64,000 bases of DNA from Ideonella oryzae (GTDB lineage: Bacteria > Pseudomonadota > Gammaproteobacteria > Burkholderiales > Burkholderiaceae_C): positions 62,001 to 126,000 of the forward strand of contig NZ_JAMXMC010000002.1 of NCBI RefSeq assembly GCF_024055665.1, written 5' to 3'. A program made the translations under genes and the position numbers. Shown here in pieces: positions 917 to 63,507 of the stretch (within the stretch, counting starts at the first letter, position 1; every line of letters starts with the position of its first letter). A model generated the notes under the pieces. That model was not told the DNA's origin, did not search any database, and saw only the letters and a program-made list of their open reading frames with translations.

Positions 917-2087
917 TCTGGCCCAGTGGCTGCAGGCGCTCTACCCGGAGCAGTTCGGTTTCCTGCGCGTCTTCCAGTACCTGACCTTCCGGGCCGTGAT
1001 GGCGGCCATGACCGCGCTGGTCATCGGCCTGGCCTTCGGCCCCTGGCTGATCCGCCGCCTGACCGAGCTGAAGATCGGTCAGCCCATCCGCGAATACGGG
1101 GTGCAGACCCACCTGGCCAAGGCCGGCACGCCCACCATGGGCGGCGCGCTGATCCTGATCGGCATCGGCGTGGCCACGCTGCTGTGGAGCGACTGGAGCA
1201 ACCGCTTCGTCTGGGTCGTGATGATGGTCACCTTCGGCTTTGGCGCCATCGGCTGGACCGACGACTGGCGCAAGGTGGTGGACAAGAACCCCGAGGGCAT
1301 GCGCTCGCGCGAGAAGTTCTTCTGGCAGACGCTGATCGGTGTGGTCGCGGCGCTGTACCTGGCCTTCAGCGTGTCCGAGACCACCAATGTGCGGGTCATC
1401 GAGCTCTTCGTGCGCTGGGTGCAGAGCGGCTTCTCCAACGAGCTGCCGCCCAAGGCCGACCTGATGCTGCCCTTCTTCAAGAGCATCAGCTACCCGCTGG
1501 GCGTGTTCGGCTTCATGGCCCTGACCTGGTTCGTCATCGTCGGCGCCAGCAATGCGGTGAACCTGACCGACGGCCTGGACGGCCTGGCCATCATGCCGGT
1601 GGTGCTGGTCTCGGGGGCGCTGGCCATCTTCGCCTATGTGGTGGGCAACGCGGTGTACGCCAAGTACCTGCTGTTCCCCTACATCCCGGGCGCGGGCGAG
1701 CTGATGATCTTCTGCGCGGCCATGGTCGGCGCCGGCCTGGCTTTCCTGTGGTTCAACGCCCACCCGGCCCAGGTCTTCATGGGCGACGTGGGTGCGCTGT
1801 CCCTGGGCGGGGCCCTGGGCACCGTCGCGGTCATCACCCGGCAGGAGATCCTGCTGGGCGTGATGGGCGGCGTGTTCGTCGCCGAGGCCCTGTCGGTGAT
1901 GCTGCAGGTCAGCTGGTTCAAGTACACGAAGAAGAAGTACGGCGAGGGCCGGCGCCTGCTGAAGATGGCGCCGCTGCACCACCACTTCGAGAAGTCGGGC
2001 TGGAACGAGACCCAGGTGGTGATCCGCTTCTGGATCATCACGATGCTGCTGTGCCTGATCGGCCTGGCCAGCCTGAAGCTGCGCTGA
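906..2087 (+). CDS. mraY: phospho-N-acetylmuramoyl-pentapeptide-transferase
   Basis: Integral membrane enzyme that transfers phospho-MurNAc-pentapeptide to undecaprenyl phosphate, making lipid I. It has 393 residues with about ten hydrophobic segments. Recognisable family signatures are KAGTPTMGG (from residue 72), [10 protein letters not shown] (from 219, with the catalytic-site Asp residues), [12 protein letters not shown] (from 291) and the triple-His motif [11 protein letters not shown] (first His 358). ATG 906 is chosen over an upstream in-frame start because MraY proteins begin with this MLL-LAQ sequence. It overlaps the end of murF by 11 bp and is followed by murD after 12 bp. Confidence 0.97.
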
Positions 2088-2099
2088 TCTGACGAGACC

Positions 2100-3935
2100 A
2101 TGAAACACCTGCAAGACCTGTCCGTGCTGATCCTGGGCCTGGGTGACTCCGGCCTGGCGATGGCGCGCTGGTGCGCGCGCCACGGCGCGGCCCGCATCCG
2201 GGTCTGGGATTCGCGTGCCAACCCGCCGCAGGCCGCGGCCCTGGCGGCCGAGGTGCCGGCGGCCACCTTCTTCAGCGGGGCGCTGGGCGCCGACGCGCTG
2301 GAGGATGCCCGTCTGCTGCTCAAGAGCCCCGGCCTGTCGCCCGCCAAGCCGGAACTGCAGCCGCTGCTGGCGGCGGCCCGGGCGGTGGGCGTGCCCGTGG
2401 CGGGTGAGCTGGACCTGTATGCCCGCGCCCTGGCCGACCTGAAGGCCGACTGGGGCTATGCGCCCAAGGTGCTGGCCATCACCGGCACGAATGGCAAAAC
2501 CACCACCACCTCGCTGACCGCGCAGCTGGTCGAGCGCTGCGACCGCCGCGTGGCGGTGGCCGGCAACATCGGCCCGACCCTGCTGGACACCCTGACCACC
2601 GCCTGGCTGGCCGAGGCCGAGGCCCGTGCCCTGGCGGCCGAGCAGGCGCAGGCCGAGGCGGAGGCCGCCGCTTCGGAGGCCGAAGCCGCCGCCGCTCAGG
2701 CGTCTCAGCTGGAATCGCCGGTGGACGAGAGTTTGCTCGAGGCCGCCGCGGCACTGCCGCCGACGGATGAGCCGCCCGTGGTGGGCGAGGCTGCGGCCGA
2801 GGCCCCCGAGACCGAGGACGGCGCTGACGAGCCGGCAGCGGTCGATGCGGCGCCCCTGGACGACGAGGCCGCGCCCGTGGTGTTGGCCCCGCCGCCCCCG
2901 ACCGAGCCGGTGTTCGAGCACCTGCCCCAGGTCTGGGTGCTGGAGCTCTCCAGCTTCCAGCTCGATGGCGTGCAGGGCTTCGAGCCCAGCGCCGCCACCG
3001 TGCTCAACGTCACCCAGGACCACCTGGACTGGCATGGTTCGATGGACGCCTACGCCGCGGCCAAGGCCCGCGTCTTCGGCCAGCAGGCGGTGATGGTGAT
3101 CAACCGCGATGACCCGCTGGTCGAGGCCATGGTGCCGGCGCCGGTGATGGTCAGCCCTGGCCGCGGCCGGCCCAAGAAGGCGGTCAGCCGCAACGTCTGC
3201 CGCTTCGGCCTGAACCCGCCGCAGCACCCCGGCGACTTCGGCCTGGTGGTGGAGGGCGGCATGGCCTGGCTGGTGCGCGCCATGCCGGCCGACGAGACCA
3301 TCAAGCGGCGCAAGGACGAGCCCGAAGAGATCATCCTGCAGCGCCTGATGCCGGCCGATGCTCTGCGCATCCGCGGCCGCCACAACGCGGCCAACGCGCT
3401 GGCCGCCCTGGCCCTGGCCACCGCCATCGGCTGCCCGCTGGCGCCGATGCTGCACGGCCTGCGCGAGTACCGCGGCGAGCCGCACCGTGTCGAATCGGTG
3501 GGCGTGGTCGGTGGCATCGAGGCCTTCGACGACAGCAAGGGCACCAATGTGGGCGCCACCGTGGCCGCGCTGGACGGCCTGGGCGCCGACCGCCATGGCA
3601 AGCTGGTGGTCATCCTGGGCGGCGATGGCAAGGGCCAGGACTTCGGCCCGCTGGCCGGTCCGGTGGCCCGCCATGCGCGTGCGGTGGCCACGATTGGCCG
3701 CGACGCCGAGGCCATCGAGGTCATGCTGGCCGCCACCGGCGTGCCCTTCCAGCGTCATGCCACGCTGGAGGCTGCCGTGCCCTGGTGCTTCGCCCAGGCG
3801 CAGAGCGGTGACGCCGTGCTGCTGAGCCCGGCCTGCGCCAGCCTGGACATGTTCCGCAACTACGCCCATCGCTCCGAGGTGTTCATCGCCGCGGTGCAGC
3901 AGTGGGCGGCCGACCAAGGGGAGCTGCTCGCATGA
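2100..3935 (+). CDS. murD: UDP-N-acetylmuramoylalanine--D-glutamate ligase with a ~100-residue acidic insertion
   Basis: Cytoplasmic ATP-dependent ligase adding D-Glu to UDP-MurNAc-L-Ala. The N-terminal Rossmann part starts [16 protein letters not shown], the P-loop is [10 protein letters not shown] (residues 128-137), the C-terminal domain carries [11 protein letters not shown] (about 477) and LSPACASLD (about 575). At 611 residues it is far longer than the usual 440-500. Most of the excess is an Ala/Glu/Asp/Pro-rich low-complexity block at about residues 171-272, inserted in the central domain between [11 protein letters not shown] and [12 protein letters not shown] smaller basic/hydrophobic expansion (about 355-415) precedes [14 protein letters not shown]. 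Catalytic motifs are intact, so the enzyme should be active. The stop overlaps the ftsW start (ATGA). Confidence 0.95.
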
Positions 3936-52558: not shown

Positions 52559-55500
52559 ATGAACCCGTCGCCATCCGCCACCGAGCCAGCCACGCCGTCC
52601 ACCTCGCTGCCTGCCTCCCAGCAGGTGGTGAAGATCCGGCGTGACTACAACCTCTGGGTGGTCAGCGAGACCATGGAGGACTACGCGCTGCGCTTCACGC
52701 CGCGCGCCTTCCGCAAATGGTCCGACTGGCGGGTGGCCAACACGGCCTTCGGCGCCGCCTCCTTCCTGGTGCTGGAGGCGGTGGGCGCCACGCTGCTGGT
52801 GCGCTACGGCTTCGTCAACGCCTTCTGGGCCATCCTGGCCACCGGGCTGATCATCTTCCTGGCCGGCTGGCCGATCAGCGTCTACGCCGCCCGCCACGGT
52901 GTGGACATGGACCTGCTGACCCGTGGCGCCGGCTTCGGCTACCTGGGCTCCACGATCACCTCGCTGATCTACGCCAGCTTCACCTTCATCTTCTTCGCCC
53001 TCGAAGCGGCGGTGATGGCCTATGCGCTGGACCTGGCCTTCGACATCCCGCCGGCCTGGGGTTACCTGGTCTGCGCGCTGGCGGTCATCCCCCTGGTCAC
53101 CTACGGCGTCACCCACATCAGCCGGCTGCAGGTGTGGACCCAGCCGCTGTGGCTGGCCATGCTGGTGCTGCCCTATGTCTACGTCTTTCGCGAGAACCCG
53201 GGCCTCATCGAAGGCCTGATGCGCTACCCCGGCGAGAGTGGCCAGTTCGGCGCCTTCCACCTCCAGGCCTTCGGCGCCGCGATGACGGTGGGCGTGGCCC
53301 TCATCACCCAGATGGGCGAGCAGGTGGACTACCTGCGCTTCATGCCCGAATGCCGGCCCGGTCACCGCCTGCGCTGGTGGACGGCGGTGCTGGTGGGTGG
53401 GCCGGGCTGGGTGCTGCCGGGGGTGCTGAAGATGCTGGGCGGCGCGCTGCTGGCCTACCTCGCCATCGGCCACATGGTGCCGGTGGAGCGGGCGGTGGAC
53501 CCGAGCCAGATGTACCTGGCGGCCTACGAGTTCGTCTTTCCGCACTACGGTGCGGCGGTGGCGGCCACGGCGCTGTTCGTCATCGTCTCCCAGCTCAAGA
53601 TCAACGTCACCAACGCCTACGCCGGCTCGCTGGCCTGGTCCAACTTCTTCTCCCGCGTCACGCACAGCCACCCGGGTCGGGTGGTGTGGATGGTGTTCAA
53701 CATCCTGATTGCCCTGATGCTGATGGAGCTGGACGTGTTCCAGGCCCTGGGCGGGGTGCTGGGCCTGTTCTCCAACATCGCCATCAGCTGGATCATGGCC
53801 GTGGTGGCCGACCTGGTCATCAACAAGCCGCTGGGTTGGAGTCCCAAGGGCATCGAGTTCCGCCGGGCCTATCTGCATGACGTCAATCCGGTGGGCGTGG
53901 GCGCGATGGCCCTGGCTTCGGCCTTGTCGATCGCGGCCCACCTGGGCGCCTTCGGGCCGACTGCCCAGGCCTTCTCGGCCCTGATCGCGCTGGTCACGGC
54001 GATGCTCACCTCGCCACTGATCGCCTGGGCCACCCAGGGGCGCTATTACCTGGCCCGCCAGCCCGAGCCGGTGCCGGCGGCGGGTCTGGGGCTGGCCGAT
54101 GGCGAGGGCAGTTACCGCCGCCTGCAGCGCTGTGTGGTCTGCGAGCGCGACTACGAGACCGAGGACATGGCGCGCTGCCCGGCCTACGGGGGCTTCATCT
54201 GCTCGCTGTGTTGCACGCTGGAGGCCCGCTGCGCCGACCGCTGCAAGCCCCAGCCCCGGCTGGTGGACCAGGTCTGGGCGGCCTGGCGGCGGCTGCTGCA
54301 GCGCGCATTGCCCCGGCGCCTGGCGCCCCAGGTGGACACGGGCCTGGGCCAGTACCTGCTGCTGATGGGCGTCATCGTGCCGGCCCTGGGGGCCCTGTTC
54401 GGCCTGCTGTACCACCAGGAGATGAAGGTGCTGGCCGAGCGCGGCGCGCAGTTCGTGCCGCTGCTGGCGCCCTCGTTGCGTGCGGGGTTCATCAAGGCCT
54501 ATGCGGCCCTGCTGCTGGTGGCCGGCGTGGTGGCCTGGTGGCTGGTGCTGGCCCACAAGAGCCGCCAGGTGGCGCAGGAAGAAACCTCCCGCCAGACCGA
54601 GGCGCTGATGCGGGAGATCGACTCGCACCGCCAGACCGACCTGGCCCTGCAGGCCGCCAAGCGCGCCGCTGATACCGCCAACCAGGCCAAGACGCGCTAC
54701 ATCACAGCCATCAGCCACGAGCTGCGCACGCCGCTCAACAGCATCCTGGGCTATGCCCAGCTGCTGGAGGAGGATGCGGCCATGCCGGCCCACCGCCGCC
54801 ATGCCGTGTCGGTCATCCGGCGCGGGGGCGACCACCTGCTGGGCCTGATCGAGGGCACGCTGGACCTGGCCCGCATCGAGGGTGGCAAGCTCACGCTGGA
54901 CCGCAAGCCCATGCGCTTTCGGGACTGCATGGGCGAGATCGCCGGCCTGTTCGAGCTGCAGGCGGCAGCCAAGGGCATCCGCTTCCGGGCCGAACTGGCG
55001 GCCGACCTGCCGGAGGTGGTGCGCGCCGACGAGCGGCGGCTGCGCCAGATCCTGATCAACCTGCTGGGCAACGCGGTGAAGTTCACCGCCCAGGGCGAGG
55101 TGGTGTTCCGCGTCCACTACGCGCGGGAGATGGCCCGCATCGAGATCAGCGACACCGGGCCGGGCATGACGCCCGAGGAGCTCGAACGCGTGTTCGAGCC
55201 CTTTGCCCGCGGCTCCTCGGCCGGCACAGCAGCCACCGGCGGCACCGGGTTGGGGCTGACCATCGGCAAGATGCTGACCGACCTGATGGGTGGCGAGATG
55301 ACGGTGCGCAGCACGCCGGGGCAGGGCAGCACCTTCGGCCTGCGCCTGTTCCTGCCGGCGCTGCCGGCCGACACGCCCAGCGCCGCGCCGCCGCAGCGCC
55401 TGGCCCGCGGTGGCTATGCCGGGCCGCGTCGCATCATCCTGGTGGTGGACAACGAGGAGGCCGACCGCATGCTGCTGGCCGATCTGCTGCAGCCACTGGG

Positions 55501-56062
55501 CTTCCAGATCGAGCAGGCGGCCTCCGGCGAGGAGTGCCTGCTGCGGCTGCAGACGCTGCAGCCCGACGTGATCTTCCTGGACCTGGCCATGCCCGGCATC
55601 GACGGCTGGGAGACGCTGCGCCGCATCCGCGCCCAGGGCCTGAGCCAGGCGGCGGTGGCCATCATCTCGGCCAACGCCTTCGACAAGGGGCTGGACAACG
55701 ACCTGGGCCTGCCGGCCAACGATTTCCTGGTCAAGCCGGTGCGGCTGGGCGAGTTGCTGGACTGGCTGGGCCAGCACCTGGGCCTGACCTGGCTGCCCGG
55801 CGAGGCGGCGGTGGCCGAGGCCCGGGAGGCTGCGCAGGCGGACCAGCACCTGCCCCCGCCTGCCGCACTGGCGGCCCTGCGCGAGGTGGTGGCGCTGGGC
55901 TATCCCCGTGGCGTGCAACGCCAGCTCGAGGTCATCGCCCAGGGCCACCCGGAGGCGGCGGTCTTCACCGAGCGGGCGCGCACCATGGCCCGCAACTTCC
56001 AGCTCGACACCCTCCACGACTGGTTGAAACGACTGCTCGATGAACCCCGATCTGATCGCTGA
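52559..56062 (+). CDS. NCS1-type permease fused to a hybrid sensor histidine kinase/receiver
   Basis: A 1167-residue fusion. Residues about 25-510 form a complete NCS1 purine/pyrimidine-permease-like domain with about 12 membrane spans (DYNLWVVSETMEDYALRF opening, GGVLGLFSNIAISWIMAVVADLV near the end; key segments). An eight-Cys cluster (C525, C528, C540, C548, C551, C552, C558, C562) follows, then two more spans (about 598-618 and 644-666), a coiled coil, HisKA His720 (ISHELRTPLNSILGYAQLL), HATPase with NLLGNAVKF, DTGPGM and GGTGLGLTI, and a receiver with Asp1008 (FLDLAMPG). It overlaps its LuxR-type partner by 23 bp. The likely role is transport-coupled sensing of a nitrogenous ligand; whether it transports is unknown. 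Confidence 0.88.
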   Translation: MNPSPSATEPATPSTSLPASQQVVKIRRDYNLWVVSETMEDYALRFTPRAFRKWSDWRVANTAFGAASFLVLEAVGATLLVRYGFVNAFWAILATGLIIFLAGWPISVYAARHGVDMDLLTRGAGFGYLGSTITSLIYASFTFIFFALEAAVMAYALDLAFDIPPAWGYLVCALAVIPLVTYGVTHISRLQVWTQPLWLAMLVLPYVYVFRENPGLIEGLMRYPGESGQFGAFHLQAFGAAMTVGVALITQMGEQVDYLRFMPECRPGHRLRWWTAVLVGGPGWVLPGVLKMLGGALLAYLAIGHMVPVERAVDPSQMYLAAYEFVFPHYGAAVAATALFVIVSQLKINVTNAYAGSLAWSNFFSRVTHSHPGRVVWMVFNILIALMLMELDVFQALGGVLGLFSNIAISWIMAVVADLVINKPLGWSPKGIEFRRAYLHDVNPVGVGAMALASALSIAAHLGAFGPTAQAFSALIALVTAMLTSPLIAWATQGRYYLARQPEPVPAAGLGLADGEGSYRRLQRCVVCERDYETEDMARCPAYGGFICSLCCTLEARCADRCKPQPRLVDQVWAAWRRLLQRALPRRLAPQVDTGLGQYLLLMGVIVPALGALFGLLYHQEMKVLAERGAQFVPLLAPSLRAGFIKAYAALLLVAGVVAWWLVLAHKSRQVAQEETSRQTEALMREIDSHRQTDLALQAAKRAADTANQAKTRYITAISHELRTPLNSILGYAQLLEEDAAMPAHRRHAVSVIRRGGDHLLGLIEGTLDLARIEGGKLTLDRKPMRFRDCMGEIAGLFELQAAAKGIRFRAELAADLPEVVRADERRLRQILINLLGNAVKFTAQGEVVFRVHYAREMARIEISDTGPGMTPEELERVFEPFARGSSAGTAATGGTGLGLTIGKMLTDLMGGEMTVRSTPGQGSTFGLRLFLPALPADTPSAAPPQRLARGGYAGPRRIILVVDNEEADRMLLADLLQPLGFQIEQAASGEECLLRLQTLQPDVIFLDLAMPGIDGWETLRRIRAQGLSQAAVAIISANAFDKGLDNDLGLPANDFLVKPVRLGELLDWLGQHLGLTWLPGEAAVAEAREAAQADQHLPPPAALAALREVVALGYPRGVQRQLEVIAQGHPEAAVFTERARTMARNFQLDTLHDWLKRLLDEPRSDR

Positions 56063-57002
56063 TGCCCGCGACGGCGGCCTGGTGCTGATCGTCGACGACG
56101 TGCCCGACAACCTGGCGGTGCTGCACGACGCGCTGGACGAATCCGGCTACACGGTGCTGGTGGCCACGCATGGCGAGGCCGCGCTGCAGCGCGCGGCCCA
56201 GGCCCAGCCCGATGTCATCCTGCTGGATGCGGTGATGCCAGGGCTCGATGGCTTCGAGGTGGCCCGCCGGCTCAAGGCCGATCCGGTCACGGCCGGCATC
56301 CCGATCATCTTCATGACCGGCCTGACCGAGACCGACGCCGTGGTGGAGGCCTTCGCCGCGGGCGGGGCTGACTACGTGACCAAGCCCCTGCGCCCGCGCG
56401 AGGTGTTGGCCCGACTGGCCACCCATCTGCGCACCGCGCGCGACCAGCGCCAGGCCCGCAACGCGCTGGACGCCTTCGGCCATGCCACGCTGGTGGTGCG
56501 CGAGCGCGACGGCCGCCGCCTCTGGCAGACGGCGCTGGCGCGGCGGCTGATGGCCGAGGTCTTCCCGGAGATTCCCGAGCTGCTGCTGCCGGCCGAGGTC
56601 TCGGCCTGGCTGGCCCGCGAGGGTGAGCGTAGGCGCGCCGGGGGCGAGGCGACGGCGCTGCAGATCACCCGTGGCGACCGGCGCCTGGGTTTCGATCTGC
56701 ACCCGATGCCGGGGGACCAAGGCAGCGAACGCGAATGGCTGTTGGTGCTGCGCGAGACCTCGGAAGCCGCGCTGACCCAGGCCCTGATGCAGGCCCTGCC
56801 GCTGACCGCCCGGGAGGCCGAGGTGCTGCACTGGGTCATCCAGGGCAAGACCAACCGCGACATCGGCGAGATCCTGGGCACCAGCCCCCGCACGGTGCAC
56901 AAGCACCTGGAGCACGTCTTCGAGAAGCTGGGGGTGGAGACGCGCACGGCCGCCGCGGCCCTGGCCCTGGGCAAGCTGCGCCGGGGCGGCGAAGGCACCT
57001 GA
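56040..57002 (+). CDS. response regulator, receiver plus LuxR-type DNA-binding domain
   Basis: A 320-residue regulator. The receiver (about 12-132) has Asp19/Asp20, phosphoacceptor Asp63 (VILLDAVMPGLDGF) and Lys in DYVTKPLRP. A middle region (about 135-240) resembles a short PAS-like or linker domain. The C-terminal LuxR helix-turn-helix reads LTAREAEVLHWVIQGKTNRDIGEILGTSPRTVHKHLEHVFEKL (key segments TAREAEVLHW, SPRTVHKHL). ATG 56040 overlaps the kinase by 23 bp, so it is the cognate output. Control of the adjacent urt genes is plausible but not shown. Confidence 0.9.
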   Translation: MNPDLIADARDGGLVLIVDDVPDNLAVLHDALDESGYTVLVATHGEAALQRAAQAQPDVILLDAVMPGLDGFEVARRLKADPVTAGIPIIFMTGLTETDAVVEAFAAGGADYVTKPLRPREVLARLATHLRTARDQRQARNALDAFGHATLVVRERDGRRLWQTALARRLMAEVFPEIPELLLPAEVSAWLAREGERRRAGGEATALQITRGDRRLGFDLHPMPGDQGSEREWLLVLRETSEAALTQALMQALPLTAREAEVLHWVIQGKTNRDIGEILGTSPRTVHKHLEHVFEKLGVETRTAAAALALGKLRRGGEGT

Positions 57003-57023: not shown

Positions 57024-57611
57024 TCAGGCGAAGCGGCGTGCCTCGGTGGGCAGAGGCGTCACCATGCGCCGCTGCCGGGCTTCCAGCACCCGCTGCACCA
57101 GCTTGCAGACCAGGCGGGCCTGGTTCTCGTCGATCTCGGCACCCTCGACCACCGACTTGCGAAAGCGCAGCCGGCAGACCTGGCCGCTAGTCGTGACGAA
57201 GCCCAGCACCAGGGTGCGGGCCATCAGCCCGTAGCCGGCGGCAAACAGCAGGCCCAGAAGGGCCACACCCACGCCCAGCAACTGGTTGGACGGCTCCACC
57301 ATCAGCGGGGCGGCCACCAGGCCGAACAGCAGGGCGATGGCCACGACCATGCCCCAGGGCCGCTCGTGCCCATAGTGGCTGGAGGCGATGCTCTCCAGCG
57401 GCACGAGCATGCCCCATTGCCCCCACATCGACGATTGCGTGAGTTCCAGGCGCTCGATGCCGATGGCCAGCCGCACGGTCGGGGCCAGCCGGTGCCGAAA
57501 CAGCCAACGCGACAGCAGACCGCTGCGCCGGCCCACGATGTGCACGTAATGGCCTTCGTCATCGACGGGGCGCTGGCCGCACCGCCAAGACTTGATGACA
57601 TACACCCCCAC
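57024..57611 (-). CDS. conserved two-span membrane protein of unknown function
   Basis: A 195-residue protein starting at GTG 57611 behind AAGGGG with 5-nt spacing. The N-terminal soluble part (YVHIVGRRSGLLSRWLFRH, then VRLAIGIERLELTQSSMWGQ and MLVPLESIASSHYGHERPW) looks like a PH-type beta domain. Two adjacent hydrophobic segments (about 87-105 and 112-133) follow, and the C-terminal part contains VTTSGQVCRLRFRKSVVEGAEIDE with a terminal helix QARLVCKLVQRVLEARQ. I recall similar proteins as uncharacterised in Burkholderiales. It lies between the response regulator and urtA, on the opposite strand and divergent from urt. Confidence 0.75.
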   Translation of the reverse strand: MGVYVIKSWRCGQRPVDDEGHYVHIVGRRSGLLSRWLFRHRLAPTVRLAIGIERLELTQSSMWGQWGMLVPLESIASSHYGHERPWGMVVAIALLFGLVAAPLMVEPSNQLLGVGVALLGLLFAAGYGLMARTLVLGFVTTSGQVCRLRFRKSVVEGAEIDENQARLVCKLVQRVLEARQRRMVTPLPTEARRFA

Positions 57612-57658: not shown

Positions 57659-57812
57659 GTTGATTGTGGCAGAGGCGGGCGCCGGCGCCCGGCTACGCAG
57701 GATGGCGTATTGGTGCGCATGGACAGCGCTCCTAACCTTGCGTCAGCCCGTCAGGCACGGGACAACGCCTCGGCAAGAGGCTCGACAACCCCTCGGTTTG
57801 GAGCACCCACCC

Positions 57813-59078
57813 ATGAAGATTTCCCGCCGTTCCGTCACCGCCCTGGCCGCTGCGGCCTGCGCGCTCGGCTTCTCCTCGCTGGCCCAGGCGGCCGACACCA
57901 TCAAGGTCGGCGTTCTGCACTCGCTGTCGGGCACGATGGCAATCTCCGAGACCGTGCTGAAGGACGTGGCCCTGATGACGATCGACGAGATCAATGCCAA
58001 GGGCGGCGTGCTGGGCAAGAAGCTCGAGCCGGTGGTCGTGGACCCGGCTTCGAACTGGCCGCTGTTCGCCGAGAAGGCCAAGCAGCTGATCGACCAGGAC
58101 AAGGTCGCCGTCACCTTCGGCTGCTGGACCTCGGTGTCGCGCAAGTCGGTGCTGCCGGTCTTCGAAGAGAAGAACTCGCTGCTGTTCTACCCAGTGCAGT
58201 ACGAGGGTGAAGAGCTGAGCAAGAACGTGTTCTACACCGGTGCCGCGCCCAACCAGCAGGCCATTCCCGCGGTGGAATACCTGATGAGCAAGGACGGCGG
58301 CTCGGCCAAGCGCTTCGTGCTGCTGGGCACCGACTACGTCTACCCCCGCACCACCAACAAGATCCTGCGCGCCTTCCTGCACAGCAAGGGTGTGGCCGAC
58401 GCCGACATCATGGAGGAGTACACCCCCTTCGGCCACGCCGACTACCAGTCCATCATCGCCAAGATCAAGAAGTTCGCTGGCGAAGGCAAGAAGACCGCGG
58501 TGGTCTCGACCATCAACGGCGACTCCAACGTGCCCTTCTACAAAGAACTGGGCAACCAGGGCCTGAAGGCGACCGACGTGCCGGTGGTGGCCTTCTCGGT
58601 GGGTGAGGAAGAGCTGCGCGGTGTGGACACCAAGCCGCTGGTGGGCCACCTGGCCGCCTGGAACTACTTCATGTCCATCAAGAACCCGACCAACGCCGCC
58701 TTCATCAAGCAGTGGTCCGAGTACGCCAAGGCCAAGAAGATCCCGGGCCAGATGGACAAGCCGCTGACCAATGACCCGATGGAGGCCACCTACATCGGCA
58801 TCCATATGTGGGCCCAGGCCGTCGAGAAGGCCAAGTCCACCGACACCGACAAGGTGATCGCGGCGATGGCCGGCCAGACCTTCAAGGGCCCGGATGGCTT
58901 CACCATCGAGATGGACAAGAAGAACCACCACCTGCACAAGCCGGTGTTCATCGGCGAAGTGAAGGCCGATGGCCAGTTCAACGTGGTGTGGAAGACCCCG
59001 GGCCCGATCAAGGCCCAGCCCTGGAGCCCCTACATCCCCGAGAACAAGGGCAAGAAGGACGAGCCCGAGAAGAAGTAA
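57813..59078 (+). CDS. urtA: urea ABC transporter, substrate-binding protein
   Basis: Periplasmic binding protein of the urea uptake system, 421 residues. The signal peptide covers about 1-27 (RRSVTALAAAACALGFSSLAQA), and the mature protein starts ADTIKVGVLHSLSGTMAISET, typical of UrtA. Further family segments are VTFGCWTSVSRKSVLPVFEE, LLFYPVQYEGEE, NGDSNVPFYKELGNQG and the lysine-rich C-terminus. GGAG precedes the ATG. It is first in urtABCDE, with a hairpin between it and urtB that could lower downstream expression. Confidence 0.96.
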   Translation: MKISRRSVTALAAAACALGFSSLAQAADTIKVGVLHSLSGTMAISETVLKDVALMTIDEINAKGGVLGKKLEPVVVDPASNWPLFAEKAKQLIDQDKVAVTFGCWTSVSRKSVLPVFEEKNSLLFYPVQYEGEELSKNVFYTGAAPNQQAIPAVEYLMSKDGGSAKRFVLLGTDYVYPRTTNKILRAFLHSKGVADADIMEEYTPFGHADYQSIIAKIKKFAGEGKKTAVVSTINGDSNVPFYKELGNQGLKATDVPVVAFSVGEEELRGVDTKPLVGHLAAWNYFMSIKNPTNAAFIKQWSEYAKAKKIPGQMDKPLTNDPMEATYIGIHMWAQAVEKAKSTDTDKVIAAMAGQTFKGPDGFTIEMDKKNHHLHKPVFIGEVKADGQFNVVWKTPGPIKAQPWSPYIPENKGKKDEPEKK

Positions 59079-59190: not shown

Positions 59191-60777
59191 ATGCGCTTGT
59201 GCAGAACGCTGCTGCTGGCGGGCCTGACCGCCCTGGCCGCCGCGGCCCACGCCCTCACGCCCGAACAGGCGCGGGCCATCGCCAGCGGCGAGACCGACGA
59301 CCGCATCACGGCCCTGGACCAGGCCGTGGCCCGCGGCGACACCGGCTTGCCGGCCCTGGTCAATGCCCTGCTGGACGATGCCGTCAAGCTCACCCCCAAG
59401 CAGGTCCTGATCGTCCAGGGCGAATCGGTGGTGGACGCCGCCACCGGCGCGCCCGCGACCCTGCCGGAAGACGCCGAGGACGTGGTCAACAACAACCGCA
59501 TGCGCAGTGCGCTGCAGGCGGCCCAGGCGGCAGCCCAGCTGCTCTCGCCCGATCTGGCGGTGCGCCGGGAGGCTGTCGCGGCCCTGGGCAAGCAGACGCT
59601 GGAGATGACCCAGCTGCCCCTGATCGACAAGGCGCTGTCGGCCGAGAAGGACCTCGAGCTGCAGGAGGTGCTGGGCCGCATGAAGGCCTCCATCCTGGTG
59701 GCTGCACCGGACAAGGCCCAGCGGCTGGAGGCCGTGCGCTTGCTGGGCGCCAGTGGTCGCACCCAGGTCAAGAGCTTGCTGCAGGAGCGCCTGGCGCCCG
59801 GCGCCGAGACCGACCCCGAGGTGCGTGGCGCGCTGCTCGCCTCGCTGGACAAGGTGTCGGCCCGGCTGGCCTGGGGCGAGCGCCTGGGCGTGCTGTTCAC
59901 CGGCCTGAGCCTGGGCAGCATCCTGCTGCTGGTGGCCCTGGGCCTGGCCATCACCTACGGCCTGATGGGCGTGATCAACATGGCCCACGGCGAGCTGATG
60001 ATGATCGGCGCCTACGCCACTTACGTGGTGCAGAACCTCTTCAAGACCTACGCGCCCGGCGCGGTGGACTATTACCTGTGGCTGGCGGTGCCGGCCGCCT
60101 TCCTGGCCGCGGCCGTGGTGGGCGCGGTGCTGGAGCGCCTGGTCATCCGCTGGCTCTATGGCCGGCCGCTGGAGACGTTGCTGGCCACCTGGGGCATCTC
60201 GCTGGTGCTGATGCAGGGCGTGCGCAGCCTCTTCGGGGCGCAGAACGTGCCGGTGGAGAACCCGGCCTGGCTGTCCGGCGGCATCGACGTCATGAGCAAC
60301 CTGACGCTGCCCTACAACCGCATCGCCATCATCGCCTTCGCCTTCCTGGTGCTGGGTGGCGTGGCGCTGCTGATCGCCAAGACCCGGCTGGGCCTGTTCG
60401 TGCGGGGCGTGACGCAGAACCGCCGCATGGCGGCCTGCATGGGCGTCAACACCGCCCGCATCGACACCTACGCTTTCAGCCTGGGCGCGGGCATTGCCGG
60501 CTTGGCCGGCTGCGCGCTCAGCCAGGTCGGCAACGTCGGCCCCGATCTGGGCCAGGGCTACATCGTGGACTCGTTCATGGTGGTGGTGCTGGGCGGGGTG
60601 GGTCAGCTGGCCGGCACCGTCTACGCCGCCCTGGGCCTGGGCGTGCTGAACAAGTTCCTGGAGGGCTGGGCGGGTGCCGTGCTCGCCAAGATCATGGTGC
60701 TGGTCGTCATCGTCGTCTTCATCCAGAAGCGGCCGCAAGGGCTGTTCGCGATGAAGGGCCGCAGCGCAGAGGCTTGA
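59191..60777 (+). CDS. urtB: urea ABC transporter, permease UrtB
   Basis: Membrane permease of the branched-chain/urea type, 528 residues, the long form with a soluble extracytoplasmic region. The signal peptide (about 1-20) is followed by a helical domain of about 210 residues (TPEQARAIASGETDDRITAL, VVDAATGAPATLPED) and then about eight membrane spans from LGVLFTGLSLGSILLLVALGLAITYGLMGVINMAHGELMM (key GLMGVINMAHGE). SFMVVVLGGVGQLAGT is the EAA-like loop. It is spaced 7 bp from urtC. Confidence 0.96.
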   Translation: MRLCRTLLLAGLTALAAAAHALTPEQARAIASGETDDRITALDQAVARGDTGLPALVNALLDDAVKLTPKQVLIVQGESVVDAATGAPATLPEDAEDVVNNNRMRSALQAAQAAAQLLSPDLAVRREAVAALGKQTLEMTQLPLIDKALSAEKDLELQEVLGRMKASILVAAPDKAQRLEAVRLLGASGRTQVKSLLQERLAPGAETDPEVRGALLASLDKVSARLAWGERLGVLFTGLSLGSILLLVALGLAITYGLMGVINMAHGELMMIGAYATYVVQNLFKTYAPGAVDYYLWLAVPAAFLAAAVVGAVLERLVIRWLYGRPLETLLATWGISLVLMQGVRSLFGAQNVPVENPAWLSGGIDVMSNLTLPYNRIAIIAFAFLVLGGVALLIAKTRLGLFVRGVTQNRRMAACMGVNTARIDTYAFSLGAGIAGLAGCALSQVGNVGPDLGQGYIVDSFMVVVLGGVGQLAGTVYAALGLGVLNKFLEGWAGAVLAKIMVLVVIVVFIQKRPQGLFAMKGRSAEA

Positions 60778-60784
60778 GAACCGC

Positions 60785-61915
60785 ATGAGCTCCCCCCAAC
60801 TTACCTCTCTTCCCACGCCGCGCCGCGGCCTGCTGCTGGGCACGGCCGGCTGGACGGCGGTGGCCGCCGCCACCGCGCTGGTGGCCGTGCTGGTGCCCGT
60901 GCTGAACCTGCTGGTGCCCGAGGGCAGCCCGCTGCACCTCAGCGACTACGCCGTGGCTCTGGTCGGCAAGATCATGTGCTATGCCATCTGCGCGCTGGCC
61001 ATGGACCTGATCTGGGGCTACACCGGCATCCTCTCGCTGGGTCACGGCGTGTTCTTCGCGCTGGGCGGCTACGCCATGGGCATGTACCTGATGCGCCAGA
61101 TCGGCCGCGACGGCAACTACCAGAGTGATCTGCCGGACTTCATGGTCTTCCTCGACTGGAAGACGCTGCCCTGGCACTGGGCGGTGTCCGACAGCTTCGT
61201 GGCCCAGCTGTTGCTGGTGCTGCTGGTGCCTGGCCTGCTGGCCTTCGTGTTCGGCTTCTTCGCCTTCCGCTCGCGCATCAAGGGCGTGTACTTCAGCATC
61301 ATCACGCAGGCCATGACCTTCGCGGCGATGCTGCTGTTCTTCCGCAACGAGACGGGCTTCGGCGGCAACAACGGCTTCACCGATTTCAAGCGCATCCTGG
61401 GCATCCCCGTCGCCCAGCCCTCCACCCGCATGGTGCTGTTCGTGCTGACCGGCCTGACGCTGATCGGCTTCTACCTGATGGCCCGCTGGATCGTGAACAG
61501 CAAGTTCGGCCGCGTGCTGCAGGCCATTCGCGATGCCGAGAACCGCGTCATGTTCACCGGCTACAACCCGCTGGCCTACAAGCTGGCCATCTGGACCCTG
61601 TCGGCCGTGATGTGCGGCGTGGCCGGAGCGCTTTACGTGCCGCAGGTGGGCATCATCAACCCCAGCGAGATGAGCCCCGCGGCCTCGATCGAGATCGCCA
61701 TCTGGGCGGCCGTGGGCGGACGGGCCAGCCTGATCGGCCCCATCGTCGGCGCCTTCTTCGTCAACGGCGCCAAGAGCTGGTTCACCCAGGTCTTCCCCGA
61801 GTTCTGGCTCTACTTCCTGGGGGCCTTGTTCATCGCCGTCACGCTGTTCCTGCCCAACGGCATCGTGGGCCTGGCCGCCAAACTGAACGGCCGCAAGAAG
61901 GAGGAACGCGCATGA
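60785..61915 (+). CDS. urtC: urea ABC transporter, permease UrtC
   Basis: Second permease of the urea transporter, 376 residues, about ten spans. Typical segments are YAICALAMDLIWGYTGILSLGHGVFFALGGYAMGMYLMR (key WGYTGILSLGHG), GGNNGFTDFKRILG, RDAENRVMFTGYNPLAYKL and the loop AIWAAVGGRASLIGPIVGAF. Its stop overlaps the urtD start by ATGA. Confidence 0.96.
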   Translation: MSSPQLTSLPTPRRGLLLGTAGWTAVAAATALVAVLVPVLNLLVPEGSPLHLSDYAVALVGKIMCYAICALAMDLIWGYTGILSLGHGVFFALGGYAMGMYLMRQIGRDGNYQSDLPDFMVFLDWKTLPWHWAVSDSFVAQLLLVLLVPGLLAFVFGFFAFRSRIKGVYFSIITQAMTFAAMLLFFRNETGFGGNNGFTDFKRILGIPVAQPSTRMVLFVLTGLTLIGFYLMARWIVNSKFGRVLQAIRDAENRVMFTGYNPLAYKLAIWTLSAVMCGVAGALYVPQVGIINPSEMSPAASIEIAIWAAVGGRASLIGPIVGAFFVNGAKSWFTQVFPEFWLYFLGALFIAVTLFLPNGIVGLAAKLNGRKKEERA

Positions 61916-62790
61916 CCCCCGACCTGATGGAGGCCGGCGCCAAGCGCGTGGCCGAACACGAAGCCCTGCTGCAGTCCGCCTCCTCGGGCGACCGCGAGGC
62001 CAGCTTCGGCCGCGTGCTGAACGGGGCCGAGCCGGATTTCGCCCACGGCGTGGCGCTGTACCTGGACGGCATCACCGTGAGCTTCGATGGCTTCCGGGCG
62101 CTCAACAACCTCAGCCTGGCCGTCAACGTGGGCGAGCTGCGCTGCATCATCGGCCCCAATGGCGCGGGCAAGACGACGATGATGGACGTCATCACCGGCA
62201 AGACCCGGCCCGACCTGGGCACGGCGTCCTTCGGCTCCAACATCGACCTGCTGCGCCTGCGCGAGAACGAGATCGCCCAAATCGGCATCGGCCGCAAGTT
62301 CCAGAAGCCCACGGTGTTCGAGGAACTCCCGGTCTTCGAGAACCTGGAGCTGGCGCTCAAGGCCGACCGCCGGGCTCGGGCCGGCCTGTTCGCCCGCCTG
62401 AGTGGCGCCCAGCTGGACCGCATCGCCGAGACCCTGCAGCTCATTCACCTGCTGCCCCAGGCCCAGCGCACCGCCGGCCTGCTGAGCCATGGTCAGAAGC
62501 AGTGGCTGGAGATCGGCATGCTGCTGATGCAGGACCCCAAGCTGCTGCTGCTGGACGAGCCGGTGGCCGGCATGACCGACGAGGAGACCGAGCGCACTGC
62601 CGAGCTCTTCCTCAGCCTGGAAGGCAAGCATTCGCTGGTGGTGGTCGAGCACGACATGAAGTTCGTCGACGAGCTGACCGAGGGCCGCAAGACGGTCACC
62701 GTGCTGCACGAAGGCAGCGTGCTGGCCGAGGGCCTGCTGTCCGAGGTGCAGGCCAATGAGAAGGTCGTCGAGGTCTACCTGGGCCGCTGA
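61912..62790 (+). CDS. urtD: urea ABC transporter, ATP-binding protein UrtD
   Basis: Cytoplasmic ATPase of the urea transporter, 292 residues. An N-terminal extension of about 45 residues precedes the ABC domain: Walker A IIGPNGAGKTTMMDVI, IGRKFQKPTVFEEL, signature SHGQKQWLEIGMLL, Walker B LLLLDEPVAGM and switch His in VEHDMKFV. The GQKQ-type signature is characteristic of UrtD. ATG 61912 overlaps the urtC stop and is preceded by AGGAGG. Confidence 0.96.
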   Translation: MTPDLMEAGAKRVAEHEALLQSASSGDREASFGRVLNGAEPDFAHGVALYLDGITVSFDGFRALNNLSLAVNVGELRCIIGPNGAGKTTMMDVITGKTRPDLGTASFGSNIDLLRLRENEIAQIGIGRKFQKPTVFEELPVFENLELALKADRRARAGLFARLSGAQLDRIAETLQLIHLLPQAQRTAGLLSHGQKQWLEIGMLLMQDPKLLLLDEPVAGMTDEETERTAELFLSLEGKHSLVVVEHDMKFVDELTEGRKTVTVLHEGSVLAEGLLSEVQANEKVVEVYLGR

Positions 62791-62814: not shown

Positions 62815-63507
62815 ATGCTGAAGGTCGAGGGACTGAACCAGTACTACGGTGGCAGCCACATCCTGCGCGGCCTGGACTTCGAGGCCAGGCAGGGCGAGGT
62901 GACCGTGGTGCTGGGCCGCAACGGCGTGGGCAAGACCACGCTGCTCAAGAGCCTGATGGGGGTGGTGCCGATCAAGACCGGCACCATCGGGCTGGATGGC
63001 CAGGACATCACCCACGACACGCCCTATGAGCGGGTCCGCAAGGGCGTGGGCTATGTGCCCCAGGGGCGCGAGATCTTCGGCCGGCTCACGGTGGAGGAGA
63101 ACCTGCGCATGGGCCTGGCCTACAAGCCGGGCGGCACGCCCATCCCGGCCGAGCTCTTCGAGCTGTTTCCCATCCTGAAGCAGTTTCTGCACCGCCGCGG
63201 GGGCGACCTCTCCGGCGGCCAGCAGCAGCAGCTGGCCATCGCCCGCGCCTTGGCGGCCGGGCCCAAGCTGCTGATCCTGGACGAGCCCACCGAGGGCATC
63301 CAGCCCAGCATCATCAAGGACATCGGCCGGGTCATCCGCATGCTGGCCGATCGTGGCGACATGGCCATCGTGCTGGTGGAGCAGTACTACGACTTTGCCG
63401 CGGAGCTGGCCGACCAGTACCTGGTGATGGAACGCGGCGAGATCGTCCAGCGCGGCCGTGGCGCCGACATGGAAGCCGAGGGTGCCCGCCAGCGGATGTC
63501 GATCTGA
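62815..63507 (+). CDS. urtE: urea ABC transporter, ATP-binding protein UrtE
   Basis: Second ATPase of the urea transporter, 230 residues. It starts MLKVEGLNQYYGGSHILRG. Walker A GRNGVGKTTLLKSLMG, signature LSGGQQQQLAIARAL, Walker B LLILDEPTEGIQPS and the closing LVEQYYDFA motif identify LivF-like UrtE. AAGGAA lies upstream of the ATG. It ends the operon; no urease genes follow in the window. Confidence 0.96.
   Translation: MLKVEGLNQYYGGSHILRGLDFEARQGEVTVVLGRNGVGKTTLLKSLMGVVPIKTGTIGLDGQDITHDTPYERVRKGVGYVPQGREIFGRLTVEENLRMGLAYKPGGTPIPAELFELFPILKQFLHRRGGDLSGGQQQQLAIARALAAGPKLLILDEPTEGIQPSIIKDIGRVIRMLADRGDMAIVLVEQYYDFAAELADQYLVMERGEIVQRGRGADMEAEGARQRMSI

Follow-up and report, generated by a model that had tools for sequence, protein, structure and literature searches.

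A permease-kinase fusion of predicted NCS1 fold beside the urea transporter genes of Ideonella oryzae: a candidate receptor for urea and small amides

In Ideonella oryzae (Burkholderiales), a stretch of 64,000 nucleotides (contig NZ_JAMXMC010000002.1, positions 62,001 to 126,000; here called the window) carries a gene in which a permease domain is continuous with a hybrid histidine kinase, followed by the gene of a LuxR-type response regulator and by urtABCDE, which encode a urea ABC transporter. The locus raises the question of what a kinase built on a permease perceives, and which genes it controls through its partner. The answer that we favor, and consider likely, is that the protein is a transporter-derived receptor kinase (a “transceptor”) for urea or small amides, and that the regulator binds a candidate operator upstream of urtA and controls urt. 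The evidence comes from the architecture of the kinase, its predicted fold and conserved residues, its linkage to urea and amide genes in other genomes, and a conserved DNA site that is tied to genomes bearing the kinase.

Architecture of the fused kinase and its regulator

The features of the two proteins, in window coordinates, are the following (ORF, open reading frame; REC, receiver domain; HTH, helix-turn-helix).

52559..56062, plus strand: fusion of an NCS1-fold permease with a hybrid histidine kinase, 1167 aa, ATG start (ORF list, Pfam, AlphaFold model)
52559..54088, plus strand: permease domain, residues 1-510 (fold match to CodB and Mhp1; invariant E149, K347, N352 and Y354)
54110..54253, plus strand: Cys-rich linker, residues 518-565, with C525, C528, C540, C548, C551, C552, C558 and C562 (alignment; short strands in the model)
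54344..54553, plus strand: two extra putative membrane helices ahead of HisKA, at residues 596-665 or so (helices 596-627 and 633-699 in the model; membrane nature suggested by the sequence)
54689..54886, plus strand: HisKA, phospho-acceptor H720 (Pfam, residues 711-776, 60.8 bits)
55028..55354, plus strand: HATPase_c (Pfam, residues 824-932, 99.7 bits)
55436..55762, plus strand: receiver domain, D1008 (Pfam Response_reg, residues 960-1068, 75.2 bits)
56040..57002, plus strand: response regulator with REC (D63), alpha/beta middle domain and LuxR/GerE HTH, 320 aa, ATG start (Pfam, model)

A preliminary description of this DNA had reported the kinase ORF and a LuxR-type regulator overlapping it by 23 bp, and both coordinates and overlap agree with the ORF list; the HisKA, HATPase and REC domains, for which it had proposed searches with hidden Markov models (HMMs), are all clear in Pfam, and no HPt domain was found at E<=0.01 in the Pfam scan. 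That description makes no mention of the Cys-rich segment, of the additional pair of membrane helices or of the palindrome upstream of urtA. The helices, counted by reading the AlphaFold model, amount to 14, twelve in the permease part and two behind the linker.

The nature of the permease domain rests on structure prediction. Single-sequence searches with residues 1-510 returned no Pfam family at E<=10 and no PDB chain, and PF02133 is absent among the 25 families listed for 70 homologues, so that at most one member could match it at E<=1. The alignment of these 70 sequences (profile A1) was the input to the AlphaFold model of the permease-kinase, which has a pLDDT of 87.7 and a pTM of 0.87; searched against PDB sequences, the family profile gave two matches, with E values of 0.95 and 4.4, both of which look like chance and were set aside. 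Among solved structures, the model is closest to CodB, with Z 35.7 for 397 residues, and to Mhp1, with Z 30.6, 28.6 and 27.6, whereas the non-NCS1 families reach at most 24.9 among the 50 entries listed, those of SLC5 about 22-24. An SSF (SLC5) permease domain has no Pfam match in the window kinase and is not among the families listed for the 70 members; no STAC linker appears in the Pfam output, from a library that may or may not contain a STAC model, and the linker is Cys-rich. A bridge between the family and Pfam NCS1 is provided by L230, a standalone permease that is 28% identical to the window domain (E 2e-44, 151 bits) and matches both PF02133 (36.4 bits, cut-off 23.5) and profile A1 (176.6 bits); it adjoins CN-hydrolases, an UrtA/AmiC-like protein and AmiR_N-ANTAR. 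The permease part is thus predicted to have the NCS1 fold, and the earlier claim of an NCS1-like domain fused to a hybrid kinase is borne out by this prediction and not by sequence matching. The symporters Mhp1 (2jln, 4d1a) and CodB (7qoa) share that fold with the window domain, but they lack a kinase, no sequence match to them is detectable, and the Na2 site and one substrate-site residue are changed in the window kinase.

These changes were traced in an alignment of 185 fused proteins, the window included. H720, each of the eight linker cysteines, and E149, K347, N349, N352 and Y354 are present in 185/185; D1008 is Asp in 179/185, with four gaps and two other residues. Aligning Mhp1 with L324, and L324 with the family, places E149 at Mhp1 Q121, N352 at N318 and K347 at S312, the last equivalence resting on a one-residue gap as well as on the two chained alignments. 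In Mhp1, we take Q121 to be the substrate-site Gln, N318 the Asn of transmembrane helix 8 (TM8) that contacts the substrate, and S312 the Na2-site Ser of TM8. The Na2-site Ser/Thr of TM8 is absent from the family, a Lys standing at the S312 position in all 185 proteins. K347 may replace the sodium ion, and E149 would suit the NH2 groups of an amide; two standalone permeases share K347 and E149, which are thus not specific to sensors.

It is at this point that the ligand proposed by the preliminary description has to be considered, namely a purine, pyrimidine, hydantoin or allantoin-like compound, the use of urt being adjusted because the breakdown of such compounds yields urea. The closest folds are those of transporters of such molecules (cytosine for CodB, hydantoins for Mhp1), and the TM8 Asn, presumably a substrate contact in Mhp1, is retained as N352. 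The comparison with the Mhp1 substrate site that was proposed along with it holds for this Asn, but the position of Gln121 is occupied by an invariant Glu and that of Ser312 by an invariant Lys, and the neighboring genes, as detailed in the next section, do not favor it.

The regulator is of the expected class. Pfam recognizes Response_reg at residues 15-126 (96.4 bits) and GerE/LuxR at 254-309 (64.9 bits), D63 is invariant in 74 sequences, and the model shows a REC domain, a middle alpha/beta domain and an HTH, with LuxR-class LiaR, StyR and FixJ among its Foldseek matches. Its association with the kinase was followed in three sets of loci: the best 80 of 534 genome_contigs matches (the 80-locus set, biased to near relatives and possibly sharing species with the next); 67 of the 69 places found in Burkholderiales (the order set, excluding the window itself and G347, a 94-aa fragment); and 40 other proteobacterial loci (the phylum set, excluding fragments G669, G622, G467 and G584, the short contig L258 and the distant L230). 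A LuxR-type regulator scoring at least 100 bits lies somewhere in the locus in 77/80, 61/67 and 38/40 cases, mostly directly 3' of the kinase, in keeping with the partnership first suggested for the window.

Gene neighborhood and the probable ligand

Beyond the regulator lie the urea transporter genes, each of which scores above its NCBIfam cut-off, so that the earlier assignment of urtABCDE stands.

57813..59078, plus strand: urtA, urea ABC transporter binding protein (TIGR03407, 593 bits, cut-off 492.75)
59191..60777, plus strand: urtB (TIGR03409, 432 bits, cut-off 250)
60785..61915, plus strand: urtC (TIGR03408, 463 bits, cut-off 296)
61912..62790, plus strand: urtD (TIGR03411, 370 bits, cut-off 304)
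62815..63507, plus strand: urtE (TIGR03410, 344 bits, cut-off 286)

The start of urtA is 1.75 kb past the kinase gene, rdgC ends 36 bp before the start of the latter, and ureC is found on the same contig of the genome, approximately 136 kb from the kinase. Ahead of its permease domain, UrtB (59191-60777) is extended at the N terminus by a long segment that weakly matches HEAT repeats.

A single locus says little about linkage, and the neighbors of relatives were counted by tblastn within the fetched loci, approximately 10 kb on either side where the contig allows; gene calls in the neighbor lists came from a simple script, and several names were given by eye. A urea or amide gene is present in 65/80 loci of the 80-locus set (ureC in 61, a UrtA-type gene in 24), in 54/67 of the order set (ureC 22, UrtA-type 39, FmdA 35, amidase 13, AmiS 2) and in 39/40 of the phylum set (ureC 4, UrtA-type 35, FmdA 29, amidase 16, AmiS 2), where the sole locus without one, L201, is cut by a contig end. 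Likewise, among the 15 loci without a match in the 80-locus set, only L032, L063 and L087 extend for about 10 kb on both sides. As just 151 of the 399 Burkholderiales genomes have ureC and just 148 have UrtA, chance neighbors within 10 kb would be expected about once in 100 loci, a figure that is an estimate and not a computed control. A repeated link to urea and nitrogen genes, whose lack of consistency had been named beforehand as a refutation, is therefore present. In relatives, the kinase is often divergent from urease genes, with urt farther along, and in many amide-type loci it is divergent from a second UrtABCDE-like transporter followed by formamidase; the identities of FmdA, aliphatic amidase, FmdB and AmiS/UreI were confirmed by Pfam or NCBIfam in one example each.

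In contrast to urease, urt, formamidase, amidase and AmiS, purine-catabolism genes were not recognized among the recurrent neighbor clusters, which were named by eye except where checked by HMM. Allantoicase was not found in the genome of the host, a result of little weight because the control matched nowhere. Together with the invariant Glu at the Mhp1 Gln position, this neighborhood does not sustain the purine, pyrimidine or allantoin ligand first put forward; sensing of purines or allantoin is unlikely, and we give that explanation very little credence.

A conserved palindrome before urtA

57694..57709, no strand assigned: candidate operator TACGCAGGATGGCGTA, a 7-2-7 inverted repeat with the exact core TACG-N8-CGTA, 103 bp before the urtA ATG

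The means by which the regulator could reach urt is suggested by this site, the single exact copy of TACG-N8-CGTA in the window. The dyad belongs to promoters of amide clusters and recurs before UrtA-type genes; it was discovered in the regions between divergent UrtA-type and kinase genes, 45/53 of which contain it against 0.12 expected from 40 shuffles; these regions are related sequences and not independent, and do not include the window. They overlap the order and phylum sets but contain no locus of the 80-locus set, which therefore provides a cleaner test. Its loci have 26 exact sites, 24 of which fall within 300 bp before UrtA, and five shuffled copies of all 80 loci had between 1 and 4 sites. 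The site consists of inverted heptamers 2 bp apart; in amide loci its consensus is TACGTCA-NN-TGACGTA, and before urtA it is TACGCCA-NN-TGGCGTA; the perfect palindrome TACGTCANNTGACGTA is absent from the window at up to three mismatches, and the shorter core is present. Overall, of the 99 loci in which a UrtA-type gene has sufficient sequence ahead of it, 82 have an exact copy within 700 bp upstream: the window, 24/24 in the 80-locus set, 32/38 in the order set, 25/35 in other proteobacteria and 0/1 for L230.

A dependence on the kinase was sought in trans, in the sequence ahead of UrtA-type genes (at most 1.3 kb per gene) in 40 kinase-negative Burkholderiales genomes and in 20 that bear the kinase elsewhere than at urtA. 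The 40 negative promoters (35 of near-typical UrtA, five of a second type) were hand-picked, negative meaning no match in the Burkholderiales survey, and they include G234 and G294, two kinase-less genomes of the host's own family. Exact sites were found in 0/40 of these versus 9/20 unlinked promoters of kinase-positive genomes (p 1.1e-5), one of the nine, in G387, lying at 817 bp and perhaps due to chance. In seven of the 20 genomes, the kinase sits at an amide cluster, and there the unlinked promoter has no site (0/7), while the promoter of the amide cluster itself has one in most. Among the remaining 12 promoters, eight (L264-L271) carry the site 232-301 bp before the HMM start (8/12 vs 0/40, p 6.6e-7, in a grouping made after seeing the result), and four do not (L272, which has a near match, L273, L274 and L282). 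One upstream stretch, that of L281, is only 381 bp long.

The palindrome could instead be bound by another regulator, such as one of nitrogen control, or be a promoter element, the LuxR-type regulator acting elsewhere. In favor of this, the genome of the host has five exact sites, no more than the approximately 2.4 per 1.49 Mb that shuffling predicts, and the binding of the regulator to the site is itself a proposal. Since five sites are at chance level, no wider regulon is claimed. Against it stand the contrast between kinase-negative genomes and kinase-positive ones, above all those with the kinase away from amide clusters; the 7-2-7 layout, which fits regulators of the NarL/FixJ type; and the presence of the site between kinase and permease genes in two loci where no urt gene was found (L348 and L350, described below). 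We regard this alternative as improbable.

Three further observations concern such sites. One of those in the host genome (L261 ~1501-1516, C26:193918) is just upstream of a formate-dehydrogenase-like ORF, formate being the product of formamide hydrolysis, and another exact site (L262) is near an acetyl-CoA-hydrolase-like ORF; here too the genome total is at chance level. In the window, a 195-aa ORF without Pfam or NCBIfam match (57024-57611, minus strand) is separated from urtA by the palindrome and could be co-regulated. Lastly, a different dyad, AAGA-N11-TCTT, is found in 31/61 kinase/urease intergenic regions (L009-L088; 0.03 expected), and is perhaps a urease promoter element; the regions are from closely related genera, which makes it only a lead.

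The sequence of events that we envisage for the urea or amide receptor would start with the binding of urea, or a closely related small amide, to the NCS1-fold domain. The resulting change would be relayed through the Cys-rich linker and the two extra helices to the HisKA/HATPase core, leading the kinase to phosphorylate the regulator encoded by the overlapping gene, either directly or with its own REC domain as a gate. The phosphorylated regulator would then bind TACG-N8-CGTA before urtA, most likely activating urtABCDE. In relatives, the same module is located at urt-like transporters together with formamidase or amidase, or else next to a permease of the family that has no kinase.

Several observations weigh against such a scheme. 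An exact site is missing from 17/99 UrtA-type promoters and from 11/20 unlinked ones, which comprise the seven with the kinase at an amide cluster and four others (G374, G047, G091 and G340). The regions between divergent kinase and urease genes in the 80 loci show no exact site, the single one in L014 being inside a urease gene, which leaves urease itself unexplained by the operator. In the last draw of loci (L350-L363, several cut by contig ends), urea or amide genes are found in only 7/14, and an exact site at the kinase or permease in 5/14 (L350, L351, L355, L357 and L362); in L352-L354, urea/amide genes and exact sites are both missing, and no sequence next to the permease matches this kinase part. 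Urea and amide genes are absent over about 9 kb around the fused kinases L130 (9123-13313, 1396 aa) and L131 (9016-13263, 1415 aa), a separate pair on the tree of the family, and L130 is located by phenol-hydroxylase-like genes, named by eye. Finally, the two-component system AmsSR of Acinetobacter baumannii, probably a member of the family, is reported to be induced by carbonyl cyanide m-chlorophenylhydrazone (CCCP) and to affect energy metabolism, not urea (PMC10112286).

Standalone permeases, distribution and known systems

Members of the family that lack a kinase offer a view of the permease in its own right. L135 is a 534-aa permease, without PF02133 or TIGR00800 match at E<=0.1, which adjoins a gene with what we take, by eye, to be a NiCoT-like motif, and a Klebsiella pneumoniae record holds a 535-aa member, annotated as “cytosine permease”, directly after ureDABC-EFG. 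In Klebsiella L349, ureC is a single unbroken match (1969-3666) with an insertion element behind it. Both forms coexist in two loci. In L348 (A. baumannii), a standalone member is transcribed away from the overlapping genes of a hybrid kinase (1154 aa) and a LuxR regulator (319 aa). In L350 (genome G1025), the standalone member (617-aa frame) likewise diverges from the kinase and regulator genes, and FmdA and amidase come after it. In each locus, the divergent genes have an exact site between them. The change from transporter to receptor would therefore be testable within one family. With the Klebsiella permease as query, relatives were detected in 15/274 genomes (18 places), short only in G1025, and standalone members are thus rare in this draw. 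In the one Klebsiella plasmid read in detail (L329), the genes of a fused kinase and its regulator diverge from urtABCDE and formamidase, and an exact palindrome separates the two groups. Kinase-less permeases of this kind are the probable ancestors of the sensor.

The Cys-rich linker leads to another explanation, in which nickel, zinc, redox or energy state is the signal, perceived by the cysteines, and the permease fold is a mere membrane anchor. The eight cysteines are indeed invariant, urease requires nickel, and the presumed NiCoT-like neighbor of L135 would be in agreement. To our knowledge, however, formamidase clusters have no nickel requirement; the kinase-less permeases L135, L328 (Klebsiella) and L348 stop directly past a shorter CxxC...CSLC motif, so that the Cys motif came with the permease; and residues of the substrate site do not vary among family members, a constraint not expected of an anchor. 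In favor of this explanation, AmsSR is linked to energy state, and its authors speculate on quinone sensing via a cysteine (PMC10112286). We find this explanation doubtful and rank it below that of a urea or amide receptor.

As regards distribution, the permease domain is present in 66/399 Burkholderiales genomes, at 69 places, 66 of which are within open frames of more than 900 aa, which indicates that the fusion is not a chance arrangement. A profile search found the domain in 56/398 Pseudomonadota genomes, some matches being fragments, and plasmid matches comprise 533 records, 342 of them from Klebsiella; in the plasmid records listed, the fused kinase is often annotated simply as “ATP-binding protein”. 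On a quick tree of 131 permease domains (midpoint root, long branches), context labels cluster, with 26 changes versus 63.6 when labels are shuffled and 0/200 shuffles as low. The amide context is scattered over many branches and the urea context forms several separate well-supported groups; the window falls in a large Burkholderiales urea group that includes some amide-linked rows. On such a tree, it is likely that amide sensing came first and that urea sensing arose later, several times.

The kinase is a variant of known fusions between transporters and kinases, and not a new kind of system; a description of an NCS1-type fused kinase was not found among the top-ranked titles of the open-access literature. 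The CbrA/SLC5-STAC kinases likewise have a permease fold fused to a sensor kinase and are regarded as transceptors (PMC13022988). They have the SLC5 fold, a STAC linker and histidine, acetate or pyruvate systems (PMC13022988, PMC9100948, PMC5715377); the window kinase has the predicted NCS1 fold, a linker that is Cys-rich and urea genes nearby. Ks-Amt5 is a nitrogen-source transporter fold fused to a kinase, and differs in its Amt fold, its ammonium ligand and its anammox host (PMC5764959, PMC12918730). AmsSR matches the window pair in architecture, with 14 predicted membrane helices, a hybrid kinase without HPt and a LuxR-type regulator directly downstream, and the main text of the paper mentions neither NCS1, urea, amidase nor permease (PMC10112286). 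A family member is present in an A. baumannii record; its permease domain shows about 54% identity, its gene overlaps that of a LuxR regulator, and it probably corresponds to ABUW_2427 of AmsSR. The energy phenotype of AmsSR may show a further side of the system, or it may speak against a role confined to urea and amides.

Two published gene clusters are comparable in content. A gene set similar to fmdCABDEF of Methylophilus methylotrophus adjoins amide-type kinases, and the review that describes it mentions no histidine kinase (PMC10781810). The L329 content of urtABCDE and formamidase resembles the plasmid urea transport system (UTS) of Klebsiella CG307, to which gene content suggests that it corresponds; the paper on this system mentions neither histidine kinases nor two-component systems (PMC13060141). 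A broader proposal, for which we see about even chances, is that the family constitutes an unrecognized class of urea and short-chain-amide permeases of NCS1 fold, in which kinase-less members serve urease or formamidase operons and fused members are receptors that control these and urt through one shared operator, AmsSR and the Klebsiella plasmid cluster included.

Were the favored reading true, signal, target and DNA site could be assigned to a widespread two-component system, and NCS1 would join the permease folds that have been turned into receptors. It would also provide a candidate bacterial urea sensor, a candidate new class of urea/amide permeases and a reinterpretation of AmsSR.

The family also includes departures from the usual arrangement. 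L132, L133, L228 and L229 encode shorter kinases (frames of about 890-950 aa) beside formamidase and AmiS/UreI, and form one clade with a support of 99; in L132, the receiver domain is absent in the Pfam scan. The permease domains of L352, L353 and L354 are within frames of 1007-1272 aa, and are perhaps fused to something else. Two fused kinases are found in one locus in L351 (6944 and 16413) and in L076 (2227-5667 and 9929-13489), where a UrtA-like gene diverges from one of the pair and an exact site is found at 2180.

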